Shown here piece by piece: positions 12,266 through 23,744 of a DNA stretch of 64,000 nucleotides. Numbering within the stretch: the first letter of the stretch is position 1; the number at the start of each line of letters is the position of its first letter. This stretch comes from a virus. The translations under genes and the position numbers were made by a program. The stretch is taken from IMG/VR virus record IMGVR_UViG_3300008120_000018, positions 1-64,000 of that record, one strand, 5' to 3'. A model generated the notes under the pieces. That model did not search any database. It saw only the letters and a program-made list of their open reading frames with translations, and was not told the DNA's origin.

Positions 12266-13078
12266 TTATTCTACAAGCTCGTACGCGGCTTCTAGTTGCG
12301 ATTCTACTAACTTAGCACATTCTAGTTGCTTTAACTTCTTCGCTATGTATAACTGACCTTTAGCCGTTATAACAGTAACGCTATCAAAGATACCAGGTTG
12401 ATGGGGGCGCTCTTTGCGGAACACCTCTGCTCTGGCAGCTAATACATGTCGCTGATAGGGTAGCCGACTTGGCATCATCATGATAAAGCGAATGTCACGC
12501 AACATATCGAAGAACGTTGTACGACCTACGCCATAAGCTTTAGCCAAATCTCCTATTAGGACAGCATCGGCGTCGCTGACTGTCAACGTCTCTGCTAATT
12601 TAATTAGTGGGGCTTGCTCTTCTAATGTAGCATTAACTTGTTCTAAGGTGATATTAGTTTGTTCTAATTCTAAGGCCAGGCGCCCCGCTTCAAGTAAGGC
12701 CTCACCATAAGTAGTAGGTATCTTGAAGTCACTAACAGAATAGCGACCAGTCTTGCGAATGGTAGGTAGTACTTCTTGTACTACCCAGTCTTGAAATAAC
12801 TCTGCCTGTGGTTTGCGGCTGCTGAGTACTAATCTATATAAGCCAGATTCTGAAATGGCTGATATATATTGATTTGAGACTGACCCTAAGTATTGTTTAG
12901 GGTCAACTAATTGTTTTTCATACACCTTTAACCGAAGTAGAGCTACTGACGTATTAGTGTGTTCGAGAACAGCGCAAACGTCGGCTGCTATAAACCAGGG
13001 CTCATTATCAATGATTATAACGCGGATTTCTTGGTTGTTAAAGTTAAAGGTAGGTAATTGAGTCTGGGCGCATCTCAT
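12266..13078 (-). CDS. BRO-N/ANT-type phage antirepressor, 270 aa
   Basis: Residues about 10-115 form a BRO-N domain (IRVIIIDNEPWFIAADVCAV ... GLYRLVLSSRKPQAELFQDW ... VLPTIRKTG). A helical linker (LELEQTNITLEQVNATLEEQ) leads to a C-terminal ANT/KilA-C domain (SDADAVLIGDLAKAYGVGRT then QPGIFDSVTVITAKGQLYIA). This architecture is typical of phage antirepressors that bind DNA and repressors. It overlaps by 4 bases the small gene 13075-13260, whose stop abuts its ATG. Likely role: regulation of the phage life cycle. Confidence 0.9.
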   Translation of the reverse strand: MRCAQTQLPTFNFNNQEIRVIIIDNEPWFIAADVCAVLEHTNTSVALLRLKVYEKQLVDPKQYLGSVSNQYISAISESGLYRLVLSSRKPQAELFQDWVVQEVLPTIRKTGRYSVSDFKIPTTYGEALLEAGRLALELEQTNITLEQVNATLEEQAPLIKLAETLTVSDADAVLIGDLAKAYGVGRTTFFDMLRDIRFIMMMPSRLPYQRHVLAARAEVFRKERPHQPGIFDSVTVITAKGQLYIAKKLKQLECAKLVESQLEAAYELVE

Positions 13079-15120: not shown

Positions 15121-16071
15121 CTACAGAGTCCTCCCAGCACCGCACACCACCCGAAAACCGAGGTTGAGGCCGAAGTCGCGACGGTTGTTGTGGCCGCGGT
15201 AAGCAGAACGACAGCGACGGGAATAGCTGAACCAGGAACCGCCCCGCAACGGAGAACGATTATCATCCCCATTTTCTATCCAGGCACTGCCATCCGTCGG
15301 CGCACCGTAGTTATCGTGCCAAGTATCGGCGCACCATTCCCAGACATTGCCGTGCATATTATACAAACCAAAGGCATTGGGTGGAAATTGTCCCACGGGA
15401 GTTGTTTCGTTTTGATATTCTCCTGTAGGTTCATCGGCGTAGGTATTACTGGCATCATAGTTAGCCAATTCCCCCGTAATGGTTTCCCCAAAGTGAAAGG
15501 CGGTTGTTGTCCCTGCTCTACAGGCATATTCCCATTCTGCCTCACTCGGTAGTCGATACTCCCCTCCCGTTAGTTTAGATAATCTCGCGCAGAACTCGAC
15601 GGCATCGTACCAGTTGACTTGTTCTACGGGTCTACCCCGGCGCGTGGATGATCCCCCCCTATCTTTAAAGTGGGAGGGATCAGGATCAAGGTCTTTTTCT
15701 ACTTTCAAATCCTTGCGAGAGGCAACTACTCTCCACTGTGCCTGGGTGATGGAATACTTGCCCATGAAAAAGGGGCGGACGTTAACCTCATGTTGAGGAC
15801 GTTCATCATAGTAACTATCTTTCTCGTCTTGCGGTGAACCCATCAGGAAAGTTCCCCCTGGGATGGTAACCATTTCTAAGGTGATGTCGTTGTCTAAATC
15901 TTGGCTGAAATATTGGGACTGTTTCGACTCTTTGTTAATTTGCTCACCCTTCTCATTTACTCCCACCACCTCAAAGTTAAATGATAACAATTCTAACTTT
16001 TGCAACGGTTTAACTGAATCTGGATTAACTGAGACTGGAACCTTCTTTGATTGCGTATTTTGGTGTTTCAT
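15121..16071 (-). CDS. FGE-sulfatase-fold (SUMF1-like) protein with variable C-terminus, 316 aa
   Basis: Residues ~70-310 form an FGE-sulfatase domain ([65 protein letters not shown]). The C-terminal segment after GGSW has codons almost all ending in C or T (TTC AGC TAT TCC, then CAC AAC AAC, TTC GGC CTC AAC CTC), as in AAY-to-NNY mutagenesis by diversity-generating retroelements. The N-terminus (SFNFEVVGVNEKGE) is typical of cyanobacterial copies. The ATG overlaps the stop of 16068-16559 as ATGA, so it is translated with the phage operon. It is likely a 'C-type lectin'-fold binding protein, not a true formylglycine enzyme. Confidence 0.85.
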   Translation of the reverse strand: MKHQNTQSKKVPVSVNPDSVKPLQKLELLSFNFEVVGVNEKGEQINKESKQSQYFSQDLDNDITLEMVTIPGGTFLMGSPQDEKDSYYDERPQHEVNVRPFFMGKYSITQAQWRVVASRKDLKVEKDLDPDPSHFKDRGGSSTRRGRPVEQVNWYDAVEFCARLSKLTGGEYRLPSEAEWEYACRAGTTTAFHFGETITGELANYDASNTYADEPTGEYQNETTPVGQFPPNAFGLYNMHGNVWEWCADTWHDNYGAPTDGSAWIENGDDNRSPLRGGSWFSYSRRCRSAYRGHNNRRDFGLNLGFRVVCGAGRTL

Positions 16072-16559
16072 AATAAAATGTCAAGTAATGTATTGATGTC
16101 CCCAATAGTGCAACTGAGGGCATCGGCCTCTATAAAGCGTATTTCTCCCCCTACACGATGAAAGGCCTGGGCCTTCTCTTTATCGAGGGGCCGCTCCTTA
16201 TTAGTAAAGACTACCTCTTCTGTCTCTTGCTGTAGTGCGTAGTTGATAGCCGTACGATAGAGGTCCTGGTCTATTACATAGCGGAGGGCCGTTTCGTTAG
16301 GATTAAGCCCATCTGTCACGTAACGGCGGCCCACTACTAAGAAGGGGCTGTTCTGATAACGCACTACCAGAACAGTCCAATACATAGTGCCATAGCGTGT
16401 GCCCTGGGCCCACGGACTAGTAGCCACTACATTTATGGTGATGTTAGGAATGACATCTTCTATACTCAGGAGAGTATAGAGGGATAACTCTGGGAAGACG
16501 AAGGGTAGTGCTGTTCTGTCTTGTCTAATGGCGGGCAGCGCCAATACAGTCTCAAGCAA
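16068..16559 (-). CDS. Unknown phage protein, 163 aa
   Basis: The protein has mixed alpha/beta composition (PFVFPELSLYTLLSIEDVIP, TMYWTVLVVRYQNSPFLVVG) and ends DINTLLDILL. It overlaps the upstream gene 16552-17172 by 8 bases and the downstream FGE gene by 4, making a tightly coupled operon with the polymerase-like gene at 17159. No family recognised. The stretch FTNKERPLDKEKAQAFHRVG followed by EIRFIEAD suggests a Rossmann-like or nuclease-accessory fold, but this is not supportable by motif. Confidence 0.6.
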   Translation of the reverse strand: MLETVLALPAIRQDRTALPFVFPELSLYTLLSIEDVIPNITINVVATSPWAQGTRYGTMYWTVLVVRYQNSPFLVVGRRYVTDGLNPNETALRYVIDQDLYRTAINYALQQETEEVVFTNKERPLDKEKAQAFHRVGGEIRFIEADALSCTIGDINTLLDILL

Positions 16560-17172
16560 TATATTCTCCTGCTATCTCGTAGCATACTGTTAATGCGGCC
16601 TCGTGCATAATCTCAGACTTTGTATCGACGTATATAACCCCAGACTTTATATCGACGTGTGTATCAGAGAATGTTACTGTAAGAGGAGAATGGTAGCGCT
16701 CCTTAAACTTATTCTCTATCTGCTGCCATACTGTCTGTATGGCATCATCTTTAGTTATATCATCCTTATACTCTCGTGCTGCAATTAATTGATTAACTAT
16801 GCGGGACAGCTTATCGACAGCATCGGGGGCATCCATAATATCCTTGAGGATACGACGAGCCTTCATGTAATTGCTCATACGCAACATTGACTCCTTAGCA
16901 ACAGCCAGTGCTTCGTCACTGTACCAGTCCCAGAAGTCTATCTCATCATTGATAAGAACCAGCTGATATACACCAGCTGGTTCTAGCACCATTGTTGAGT
17001 TCTTCATAAGCTTGTTATGACTAGTGACCTGTTCTAAGGCATCGTCAGAGAGATTGATGGCTCTGAGAACATCTCTGGCGCTAACATAGCTCTCTATGAA
17101 TTCTATGGGCAAGTTATTGTATTGTTGAATCAAGGCACACGCCCCCCTTGTACGGGTATTAATTACTATCAT
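16552..17172 (-). CDS. Unknown phage protein, 206 aa
   Basis: ATG 17172 (MIVINTRTRGACALIQQYNN) is chosen; the longer frame from 17286 would overlap the polymerase-like gene by over 120 bases with a proline-rich, non-coding-looking prefix. The chosen start still overlaps that gene's 3' end by 14 bases, suggesting coupling. The protein is mostly helical with WDWYSDEALAVAKESMLRMS in the middle. It has no recognised domain. By operon it may work with the polymerase-like protein. Confidence 0.65.
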   Translation of the reverse strand: MIVINTRTRGACALIQQYNNLPIEFIESYVSARDVLRAINLSDDALEQVTSHNKLMKNSTMVLEPAGVYQLVLINDEIDFWDWYSDEALAVAKESMLRMSNYMKARRILKDIMDAPDAVDKLSRIVNQLIAAREYKDDITKDDAIQTVWQQIENKFKERYHSPLTVTFSDTHVDIKSGVIYVDTKSEIMHEAALTVCYEIAGEYIA

Positions 17173-18631
17173 CGGCGCTGATATTCGATGTATCAGCACT
17201 GCTATCTGATCTACTAACGGTATTCTTATGGGGGGTGGGGGCCCAGTCTCCGTATCCCGTTGTGGCCTGGAGCCGGGTACCCGCACCCATGATGATGTCC
17301 GCGATGTTGGCGCACCCCGCGTTGAATGGTATGATCTCGATCTGGCGGCCGCACACGGTGACTGCTTCTTCGGGGTCTGGTGCGGAGATGGGCTTCGGTT
17401 GCACGAGTAGGTAGCCCGATTCTACCTCACTGATGTTGGTGGAGTTATGGATCAGGGCCCCGTCGTGCTGATTGTTGGATGCGAGGCCGTGGATGTCTCG
17501 TAGACTGTCTACTTCTATACGTTGAAGTAGGGCGGACATGGCGGCTATCTTCTCGTGCTTGGGTATTAGTTTAGACCACTTCGCTATGCTGGTAGCTATG
17601 CCCTTGAGGTATCCTACTAGGCAGGCCAGGGCCCGCGTCTTAGTGGTTACATCCTTATCAGCTAAGAGCGGCTCTTCTAGTACTAGGCGCGGTATAGTGA
17701 AGCGGCTACTGAGACGCTTAACGAGCCGAGCCCCATTAATTGCTGCTAACACAGCTGTCTTCACCGTGCCTACAGACAGTAAGGGATCAGGAGAACTCAC
17801 ACGGCCCGATAGCATCTCATCCAGGTGGGAGCTAATACCCAGCTTCTCCATCTCATGGTGAGCAATCGTCGCGTGGCACTTCACGACGTCGTAGTTAATG
17901 ACAGGGCTGGATATTAGCAGCACTTCTCTGAAGTTACGACTAGCACCTTGGAGGCCGCCCCCTTTCTCGTACACGCGGAGCCCCTCGTGAGGCTGGGTTA
18001 GTTCTTGCGAGTACTCTGCCTGACGTTTCGTGTAATCGATACTAGTCACGCGCTCGAGTATACCCTGATAGCAGTTTAGGTTATGAAGGTAGCGGGCCCG
18101 TTTACTAGCCAGCTCAGCATTACTCAGACTATCGCGAGTCCTCTCTATTCTATCTCGCTGTCGTATCAGCCACGCGATGCCGTAGCCCAAATCAACTTGT
18201 GTTGGCGGTGCGCTACTAAGCGGCTTATTAAGCTTAGGAAGCGGACGGCCATCTGCATCAACGAACCACTGATCCTGTAGTCGAGAGGGGCTCAATAGTA
18301 AATCCTCTCCCTTCTCGATGAAGGTATCGATGATGTGCTCGTGAATACGGTAGCGGAAGCAGATTCCTTCCTTAGCGTAATAGGGGGCCCGCGTCATAAA
18401 CGCCTCTACGCTCTCCCAGTTATAGTTTCTGCAGTAAACGTGAATGAAGCTCTTACGAGGCAACGGCACTCCCTTCCACGCGTGGTAATCAGACTTAGCA
18501 CGCATTTGGCGCTGGCACAAAAACGTGTGGATGAATAAACGCCGACTATCACTATTCATACCAGCCGTTAGCTCGCGCAAATAATGATACTGACTAATAG
18601 TGAGTTTTAGATTAGTTTGGATGTACGGCAT
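17159..18631 (-). CDS. Candidate divergent PolA/T7-type palm polymerase, 490 aa
   Basis: Three segments match the order of the PolA superfamily: INYDVVKCHATIAHHEM (D248, motif A), SVGTVKTAVLAAINGARL (K291, resembling the O-helix motif B) and SNNQHDGALI (H389-D390-G391, resembling motif C HDE/HDS). The family match is inferred from motif order and spacing; overall similarity to characterised polymerases is not visible. There is no 3'-5' exonuclease domain; the N-terminal ~230 residues are unassigned. The C-terminal tail (SRSDSSADTSNISADDS) is disordered. GGAG lies six bases before ATG 18631. It leads the operon 18631-15121. An RNA polymerase or primase-polymerase is an alternative. Confidence 0.5.
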   Translation of the reverse strand: MPYIQTNLKLTISQYHYLRELTAGMNSDSRRLFIHTFLCQRQMRAKSDYHAWKGVPLPRKSFIHVYCRNYNWESVEAFMTRAPYYAKEGICFRYRIHEHIIDTFIEKGEDLLLSPSRLQDQWFVDADGRPLPKLNKPLSSAPPTQVDLGYGIAWLIRQRDRIERTRDSLSNAELASKRARYLHNLNCYQGILERVTSIDYTKRQAEYSQELTQPHEGLRVYEKGGGLQGASRNFREVLLISSPVINYDVVKCHATIAHHEMEKLGISSHLDEMLSGRVSSPDPLLSVGTVKTAVLAAINGARLVKRLSSRFTIPRLVLEEPLLADKDVTTKTRALACLVGYLKGIATSIAKWSKLIPKHEKIAAMSALLQRIEVDSLRDIHGLASNNQHDGALIHNSTNISEVESGYLLVQPKPISAPDPEEAVTVCGRQIEIIPFNAGCANIADIIMGAGTRLQATTGYGDWAPTPHKNTVSRSDSSADTSNISADDSN

Positions 18632-18643
18632 AAATTCTCCACT

Positions 18644-18763
18644 TCATTTAATTTTAGCACGATCTAGCAATTTAAACAAGCTGGCAAAAGGCTGTAAACT
18701 AGAATTAGCTATATTGACTCCTTGTTCGACGGACGACACCCAAAGATGCCGCCCATCAAACAA
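18644..18763 (-). CDS. Possible short ORF (39 aa) between two phage genes
   Basis: A TTG-started frame reads (M)FDGRHLWVSSVEQGVNIA then SSLQPFASLFKLLDRAKIK. It looks protein-like, lies between the 93-aa gene and the polymerase-like gene on the same strand, but has no clear ribosome site and may be a remnant. Weak call. Confidence 0.25.
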   Translation of the reverse strand: MFDGRHLWVSSVEQGVNIANSSLQPFASLFKLLDRAKIK

Positions 18764-18773
18764 ACACCAAAGA

Positions 18774-19055
18774 CTACAGCGAAACGAGCTTTCGTCCGCC
18801 GTTGATGTCTTCTGCAATCTTGACACCTGGAACAAACGTCAACGCTTCAGCCACATTGTCGCCCTGCTGTGTTGTCACTTGCACGACGCATCCACCTGGT
18901 GTCTCCATTGCTTTACACGACTTCATCCAACCTTGTTCCTTGCTGCTGGCTTTAAAGAGAAGCTGGAATGCATCACAATTGCCAACAACTTTGATGTCCG
19001 AAACCTTACCAGTTTGTGCGTCTGCAGTGCTGGTCACATCCAATGCCTTACTCAT
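18774..19055 (-). CDS. Conserved small phage protein, 93 aa
   Basis: MSKALDVTSTADAQTGKVSD with GNCDAFQLLFKASSKEQGWM and VAEALTFVPGV is a pattern I have met in large phages and cyanobacterial genomes without known function. TTTTGGAG lies six bases before the third in-frame ATG (19055), so the two earlier ATGs (19067, 19061) are not used. It is beta-rich and may be a virion or DNA-associated protein. It is the likely first gene of the leftward operon with the polymerase-like gene. Confidence 0.75.
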   Translation of the reverse strand: MSKALDVTSTADAQTGKVSDIKVVGNCDAFQLLFKASSKEQGWMKSCKAMETPGGCVVQVTTQQGDNVAEALTFVPGVKIAEDINGGRKLVSL

Positions 19056-19091
19056 AGTCATCTCCAAAATCGCCGTCGAATAAATGGTTAG

Positions 19092-19244
19092 TCCCTCGTT
19101 GACGTGAGGGCATTAATATTGTAGCACTTTAATTAACACTTCCCTCACTTTAGCGAGGGCTTCGGTCGTGAGCTCAGCCGAACAGTCTTTACCCTGACAT
19201 TCAAGATAATTAAATGTTTTCCAATATAGAATTTTCTATATTGG
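19092..19244. promoter_or_regulatory. Three hairpins in the divergent control region
   Basis: Between the leftward 93-aa gene and the rightward 78-aa gene are CCCTCGTTGACGTGAGGG (about 19092-19110), CCCTCACTTTAGCGAGGG (about 19142-19160) and the perfect inverted repeat CCAATATAGAA/TTCTATATTGG (19221-19244). The first two share CCCTC...GAGGG arms and may be operators or RNA hairpins. No ORF is evident in 19092-19313. Confidence 0.45.
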
Positions 19245-19313
19245 GACTACTACTAAGTTTACTATTAGGGCCCGCCCATCTGTCAGCATAACCGTATCTA
19301 GTCAACAACATAA

Positions 19314-22502: not shown

Positions 22503-22748
22503 TTACTGATAACTGATAACTAAAATTAAACCATTAGCATTTATCAACTGTCCTTTTTTTATTTCATCTGCTTGATCCATCATTATTGATGCAAAAAGGT
22601 CAAAAGCATCTTAGTTACTTTGTCTTAATGCCATTAACTCTTCTGGGTTATATTTCATGAAAAAACGTAAATTAGGAGCCACGATAGATAAAGCTTCAAC
22701 TTGTCGCTCTAAACTCTAATCTTTCATTAATTCTTTCTGATGTGTCAT
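22503..22748 (-). pseudogene. Small cyanobacterial-type gene with two nonsense codons
   Basis: From ATG 22748 the frame reads MTHQKELMKD-TAG-SLERQVEALS then IVAPNLRFFMKYNPEELMAL, RQSN-TAA-DAFDLFASIMMD and QADEIKKGQLINANG. Both stops sit where glutamine (CAG, CAA) would fit, suggesting C-to-T changes. AGGAGTAGATTA precedes the start. The gene overlaps the end of the pentapeptide gene and ends in the CTGATAACTGATAA-type filler seen throughout this island. Confidence 0.6.
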
Positions 22749-23744
22749 TAATCTACTCCTTGTCTAATTAAATCCTGCTTTTGTTCAGGGGTGATCCCCG
22801 TTGTATCGATAAAGATAGCGTCTTCAATGTCAGCCCCTCTCAGGTTAGCTTTATTCAAGTCAGCCCCCTTTAGATTAGCCTCAATCAGAATAGCTGCATT
22901 CAGATCAGCCCCACTCAGGATAGCCCCACTCAGATCAGCCCAACTCAGGATAGCATCACTTAGAATAGCATCACTCAGGATAGCCTTAATCAGGTCAGCC
23001 CCACTCAGGTCAGCTTCACTCAAGTCAGCTTCACTCAGGATAGCTTCACTCAGTTTAGCTTCTCTCAGGTCCGCTTCACTCAGGATAGCCTTAATTAGCT
23101 TAGCCCCACTCAGGTTAGCCCAACTCAGGTCAGCCCAACTTAGGTCAGTCCTTCTCAGGTTAGACCTTCTCAGGTCCGCTCCACTCAACTTAGCCCCATA
23201 CAGGTTAGCCCAACTCAGGTCAGCCGCGCTCAGGTCAGCTCTTATTAGTTTAGCTCCACTCAGGTTAGCCCTTCTTAATTTAGCCCCCCACAGGTTAGCC
23301 TCACTCAGATCTGCCCCACTCAGATCAGCCTTAATCAGTTTAGTCTCACTCAGTTTAGCCCCTCTCAGAATAGCTCCACTCAGTTTAGCCTCACTCAGGT
23401 CCGCCCCACTCATATCAGCCTTAATCAGGTCAACCTTAATCAGGTCAGCCCCACTTAAATCAACTTGTTGTAGAGTTGTCTTATCGATTGTTCCTTCTCG
23501 AATTGCCTTAATTAATTCAGCTTTTTCAATCTTTTGCATCTGTAGTGAACTCGACTTTAACTTTTGCATCTGTAGTGAACTCTGCTTTTGTGACAACAAT
23601 TTCGGGTATATCGTCTGGTTTAAGTTCATTGAGAAGGGACTGCAATTCCCCTGATTGATGTAAATCTACTAGGCGCTGGAGCCCATCTTCTGAACCTTCT
23701 AAAAATAGCCGAATACTGCCTTTAAGTTGAGGTTTAATGTTCAT
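22748..23744 (-). pseudogene. Pentapeptide-repeat gene disrupted by a frameshift
   Basis: ATG 23744 (AGGAGTAAACCA before it) gives MNIKPQLKGSIRLFLEGSED, the same N-terminal domain as the intact gene 344-1135, ending in TTDAKVKVEFTTDAKD-stop at about 23526. The pentapeptide domain (IEKAELIKAIREGTIDKTTL onwards) continues in another frame to 22748. A 30-base tandem duplication (TTCACTACAGATGCAAAAG with adjoining bases) precedes the junction, where two bases appear lost relative to the paralog (AAAAGTTATTG versus AAAAGATTG). The downstream part could still start at an internal ATG. Confidence 0.75.

Follow-up and report, generated by a model that had tools for sequence, protein, structure and literature searches.

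The window analysed here covers the first 64 kb of a virus record of 107,194 bases, from a Microcystis myophage that resembles Ma-LMM01. On its minus strand, at 17159..18631, it carries a gene for a 490-aa TV-Pol-like family-A polymerase, identified by sequence comparison as the ortholog of Ma-LMM01 gp030 (93% protein identity). The gene is a single frame with an ATG start and a TAA stop; its bounds coincide exactly with those of the earlier note, which had given no strand. Nine phage records, of which eight are Microcystis phage entries and one is cyanophage MaMV-DH01, hold counterparts with 92–93% identity; each of them annotates the gene as hypothetical. The gene is present at 15 viral-contig loci. 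The window protein matched no Pfam family at E-values up to 1 and had no meaningful PDB sequence match, a search of genome contigs returned nothing informative, and its sole PHROG assignment was PHROG 34692, of unknown function.

Two smaller minus-strand genes follow the polymerase gene. The gp029 ortholog (16552..17172, 206 aa), a conserved neighbour, overlaps it by 14 nt and is itself overlapped by the gp028 ortholog (16068..16559, 163 aa). Since this end-to-start overlap of three genes and their order are kept in Ma-LMM01 and five other named phages, the arrangement suggests that the gp029 and gp028 products may be partners of the polymerase. Neither ortholog had a meaningful Pfam or PDB sequence match, and no homologs of them were found at E-values up to 1 beside other TV-Pols at 17 loci.

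Selection on the gene and its variable upstream flank

Across 20 copies (18 of them distinct) from 20 phage loci, dN/dS was 0.086 over 153 pairs, and among seven segments of the protein it was lowest in residues 216–305, from R219 to K291 (0.031), and 373–395, which hold HDG (0.019). Strong purifying selection acts on the polymerase gene, a resident of the phage genome.

In Ma-LMM01, gp030 is adjoined by gp031 (OrfB_IS605) and gp032 (Y1_Tnp), an arrangement that would also fit the polymerase gene being cargo of this IS200/IS605 pair. We examined how far an upstream anchor lies from the start of the gene in the window and in 23 further loci; this distance was measurable in 22 (the anchor was missing from one locus, and another yielded no row). 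It was 199–237 bp in 15 of the 22 and 731–740 bp in six (the window, two window-identical loci and a further three); only Ma-LMM01 had 2,020 bp, and there the extra DNA is the IS200/IS605 pair. A gap of that size therefore exists at one measurable locus only, and the five other named phages have no transposase annotated there. Because the excess is confined to Ma-LMM01, the polymerase gene is resident and the IS neighbour was gained in one isolate, which argues against the gene being part of an integrated element. We rejected an IS-borne origin on these anchor distances (~2.0 kb in Ma-LMM01 only) and consider it extremely improbable.

Upstream of the polymerase gene, and not part of its unit, lies a variable stretch of ~575 bp (18681..19256, no strand assigned), which occurs in 6 of the 22 measurable loci and is missing from 15; in Ma-LMM01 the IS200/IS605 pair sits nearby instead. 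Within it, a 97-aa ORF (18774–19067, minus) matched PHROG 10828, of unknown function, with an E-value of 2.8e-5. Elsewhere in the window, at 22748–23654, is a pentapeptide-repeat-like gene whose repeat region differs in length and place among related phages.

Family-A motifs, profile register and fold

The residues singled out in the earlier note, D248, K291 and H389-D390-G391, were found in the ORF translation at the positions it gave. On the minus strand, the catalytic Asp of motif A (D248) is encoded at 17888..17890, the fingers-helix Lys of motif B (K291) at 17759..17761 and motif C (H389-D390-G391) at 17459..17467; coordinates computed from the ORF place the codon of R219, a hairpin Arg before motif A, at 17975..17977. 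In an alignment of 17 rows spanning phages, plasmids, cyanobacterial genomes and one E. coli element, R219, Q228, D248, K291, E373, H389, D390 and G391 are invariant throughout, and D248, K291 and HDG are likewise unchanged in 18/18 distinct phage copies.

Short motifs of this kind can arise by chance in an unrelated protein. HDG by itself appeared in 4.8% of 20,000 shuffles of the polymerase protein and the relaxed form HD[GESA] in 21.5%, and of the window's 54 open frames with 150 aa or more, 2 fitted a loose D..K..HD pattern. Nevertheless, the motif set is more than a chance occurrence because it is conserved across the phage copies and all 17 family rows; together with a PolA profile match above all 60 shuffles and the fold match of a relative to family-A polymerases, described below, this leaves a coincidental match with a negligible probability.

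An hhalign comparison of 12 family rows with 17 canonical PolA domains scored 42.5, compared with 16.2 when the profile was reversed and 23.7 for the highest-scoring of 60 column shuffles. The alignment superposed the GR, LQ, Asp, Lys, QG and HD motifs on their PolA counterparts, with R219 in register with the PolA TGR motif. The signal is carried by the proteobacterial rows (46.6), while the phage rows alone (19.0) and the cyanobacterial rows alone (17.5) scored inside the shuffle null.

Structure prediction for the window protein from 14 rows was unusable (pLDDT 35.7, pTM 0.19). A cyanobacterial prophage relative, L071, modelled from nine rows (L071, three cyanobacterial relatives, a partial Calothrix protein and four phage rows), reached a pLDDT of 79.9 and a pTM of 0.67. 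In VIA-align this model matched Pol theta (Z 18.1, rmsd 4.1, 308 aligned), Klenow (Z 16.7, rmsd 4.0, 301 aligned) and T7 DNA polymerase (Z 16.6, rmsd 4.3, 297 aligned), the family-A match beginning at about residue 153. Foldseek returned family-A entries only among the best 50 matches listed, and against viral models a virophage replication protein ranked tenth. The hairpin with the conserved Arg before motif A is visible in the L071 model only, which also has helices 186–203 and 206–224, candidates for the two-helix coiled-coil thumb of TV-Pols. The earlier note had called the protein PolA-type, and this description is supported by the profile register of R219, D248, K291 and HDG on the Pol I motifs and by the confident family-A fold of the relative; we hold with high confidence that the window protein is a family-A/TV-Pol relative.

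The same comparisons bear on whether the protein could be a T7-like single-subunit RNA polymerase for phage transcription, since TV-Pols and T7-like RNA polymerases have a common fold, the sugar-discriminating Glu of Pol I is absent, and yeast mitochondrial RNA polymerase was also matched by the L071 model (Z 14.5, rmsd 7.9, 407 aligned; and Z 14.4, rmsd 3.9, 316 aligned). This candidate was rejected because DNA polymerases match the model better (Z 16–18 versus 14.5). The protein is also only 490 aa long, and the transcriptome study of Ma-LMM01 reports sigma-70 type sequences of the host, without motifs specific to the phage (PMC5780444). We therefore regard a T7-like RNA polymerase as very unlikely, and the transcription enzyme that the earlier note had offered as an option is unlikely, the relative's fold being closer to DNA polymerases than to the mitochondrial RNA polymerase.

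The TV-Pol family and its relatives outside the phages

The family is not new. TV-Pols were defined by Iyer, Abhiman and Aravind in 2008, who included a member from Ma-LMM01, its gene not named in the main text, predicted the family to act as primase and polymerase, and linked a subset to D5 helicases (PMC2579912). A family profile search of Ma-LMM01 matched gp030 only, and the other family-A gene of this phage is a canonical PolA; gp030 is for these reasons almost certainly, judging by sequence, the published member. The suggestion of a new enzyme is consequently not supported, while the statement that the protein is unlike known phage polymerases stands for the library searches (Pfam, PDB and PHROG 34692) and fails in that the family was already in print. 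A full-text literature search for TV-Pol together with cyanobacteria returned no paper, though PMC2579912 names cyanophage Ma-LMM01. Our analysis proposes a function for a gene still labelled hypothetical in nine phage records, and connects that gene with a branch found in cyanobacterial prophages, on small plasmids and in an E. coli element.

The first link outside the phages was a protein with the same motifs and 22% identity (E 5e-8), encoded on a 13.7-kb plasmid of Calothrix sp. NIES-4105; its full reading spans the record start. From it we reached a Synechocystis plasmid that carries the gene in broken form. Weak matches were obtained to two Polaromonas plasmids, in one of which the TV-Pol-like gene lies directly upstream of a RepA gene, to Desulfovibrio phage 7757 and to the E. 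coli element, which occurs with its TV-Pol-like gene in 590 of 5,426 complete genomes. BLAST E-values between the cyanobacterial and Polaromonas proteins were 0.4 and 0.7, not significant alone. In the E. coli element (L025:7816-11398, L021:1-4717) the TV-Pol-like gene is annotated as hypothetical, with an AlpA-type regulator gene and integrase genes nearby.

A profile of six of these relatives matched 6 of 386 cyanobacterial genomes, and a search with the cyanobacterial alignment matched five viral contigs; scans of viral contigs with the single Polaromonas, Calothrix or Desulfovibrio-phage proteins found no relatives. Two of the five contigs, L070 and L071, are prophage-like, with an integrase, a TV-Pol and a KilAC-type antirepressor, and one of them has a terminase-like gene (the terminase, second integrase and second antirepressor were read from the sequence and are not search matches). 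The window itself has a Bro-N/KilAC antirepressor gene not far from the polymerase gene, at 12266..13078 (minus), and KilAC-type genes also accompany TV-Pol in these contigs. D5 helicase, DnaB_C and PolA were all without a match in L070 and L071, so TV-Pol may serve as a core replication gene in these two contigs.

A search for D5 helicase was negative in all 8 records searched, and DnaB_C gave two weak matches, below the cut-off. Ma-LMM01 also has Pol I, a primase and other replication genes (PMC5780444), which counts, together with the missing D5 helicase, against the primase-polymerase reading given below. The canonical PolA is split over two frames both in Ma-LMM01 (157489–158636; L026-L028) and in a 190-kb viral contig (69112–71203; L077-L079), at a similar PF00476 position (125–135) and with gaps of ~0.2 and 1 kb; Rfam detected no known intron in these split genes. 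The 190-kb contig also holds a TV-Pol homolog (L069:4980-6479) broken by one in-frame TGA.

Predicted activity, sugar gate and known systems

Taken together, we consider it likely that the TV-Pol of Ma-LMM01-like Microcystis phages is a minimal family-A polymerase, with thumb, palm and fingers and no nuclease, and a predicted primase-polymerase; that the window protein is active as such is an evenly balanced prediction. In the proposed mechanism, D248 and D390 would bind the metal ions for two-metal-ion nucleotidyl transfer, K291 would grip the incoming triphosphate, the R219 hairpin would touch the template, and the enzyme would initiate synthesis of DNA alongside the Pol I and primase that the phage itself encodes.

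We compared the active site with that of Pol I, where E710, R754, F762, Y766 and E883 correspond to H253, V287, L295, N299 and G391 of the window protein (R754, Y766 and E883 follow Pol I residue numbering). H253, L295 and N299 were placed from gap-free profile columns next to anchor residues, and V287 by counting back from K291, the profile alignment being gapped there. All 17 canonical PolA rows have Glu, Arg, Phe and Glu at positions 710, 754, 762 and 883, and Tyr at 766 (Phe in one row), whereas Glu at 710 and Phe at 762 are absent from 17/17 rows of the window protein's branch.

Some of these changes would also suit a degenerate TV-Pol, whose family-A scaffold was kept for DNA or protein binding after polymerisation was lost. 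V287 replaces the Arg and N299 the Tyr, the palm hairpin is missing and the strand before motif C is shortened relative to the relatives, the phage clade sits on a long stem branch (3.2 changes per column), and the Pol parts of some related pairs are thought vestigial (PMC10061031). However, all 18 distinct copies retain the two catalytic Asp, the Lys and the hairpin Arg, and dN/dS is lowest on exactly the motif-bearing segments. We regard loss of polymerisation as unlikely, if worth keeping in mind.

Returning to the primase-polymerase reading, the window enzyme probably discriminates weakly against ribonucleotides, a prediction made because H253 and L295 replace E710 and F762 of Pol I, and ribonucleotide-tolerant priming would follow from it. 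E710 and F762 are named as sugar-discriminating residues in PMC7581432, and CCPol keeps both equivalents and uses dNTPs. The window protein's branch, without these two ribonucleotide-rejecting residues of Pol I and CCPol, keeps the catalytic Asp pair, the Lys and the hairpin Arg. More tentatively, the cyanobacterial and plasmid TV-Pol branch could be a distinct ribonucleotide-accepting family-A primase that primes cyanobacterial-prophage and Microcystis-phage replication beside a complete Pol I system, which we rate as a doubtful proposal. If the sugar-gate prediction is true, DNA-priming and RNA-priming family-A enzymes could be told apart, and the 2008 primase and polymerase proposal would become testable in a cultured phage.

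Like the TV-Pols of PMC2579912, the window protein has a minimal family-A domain with two conserved palm Asp (D248 and D390, in 17/17 rows and 18/18 distinct phage copies), a hairpin Arg and a fingers Lys, with no Pfam match to a fused nuclease at E-values up to 1, and both occur in mobile elements and phages. It differs from them in the Arg of RxxxK, which is V287 here (V, K, E, I or P in the other rows, and R in the E. coli row only) with K291 kept, in the lack of a D5 helicase match in the 8 records searched, and in a polymerase gene that is not mobile with an IS. Compared with its cyanobacterial relatives, the phage protein is without the beta-hairpin between motifs B and C and without the strand before HDG. 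In Foldseek the L071 model also matched, with an E-value of 2.2e-6, the Zamilon virophage replication protein V6BPG7, presumably of TV-Pol type; at 778 aa this protein is longer, and it presumably carries a helicase part.

Canonical Pol I (PF00476; for example Ma-LMM01 gp178, PMC5780444) has motifs A, B and C in the same order and register, but the window protein has no visible exonuclease and no PF00476 match, and PF00476 matched 0/1 for the window's record. One TV-Pol, CCPol of SCCmec, has been shown biochemically to act together with its partner MP in priming DNA (PMC7581432), and such polymerase/partner pairs were extended to Bacillota elements in 2023 (PMC10061031). CCPol differs at the sugar gate, where the window protein has H253 and L295, and the PolA-SSB primases have an OB-fold/SSB-like partner, for which Pfam and PDB sequence searches with the gp029 and gp028 orthologs gave no meaningful match. 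Both systems resemble the window locus in having a polymerase-domain-only family-A enzyme, in a mobile element or phage, with small genes of unknown fold after the polymerase gene.
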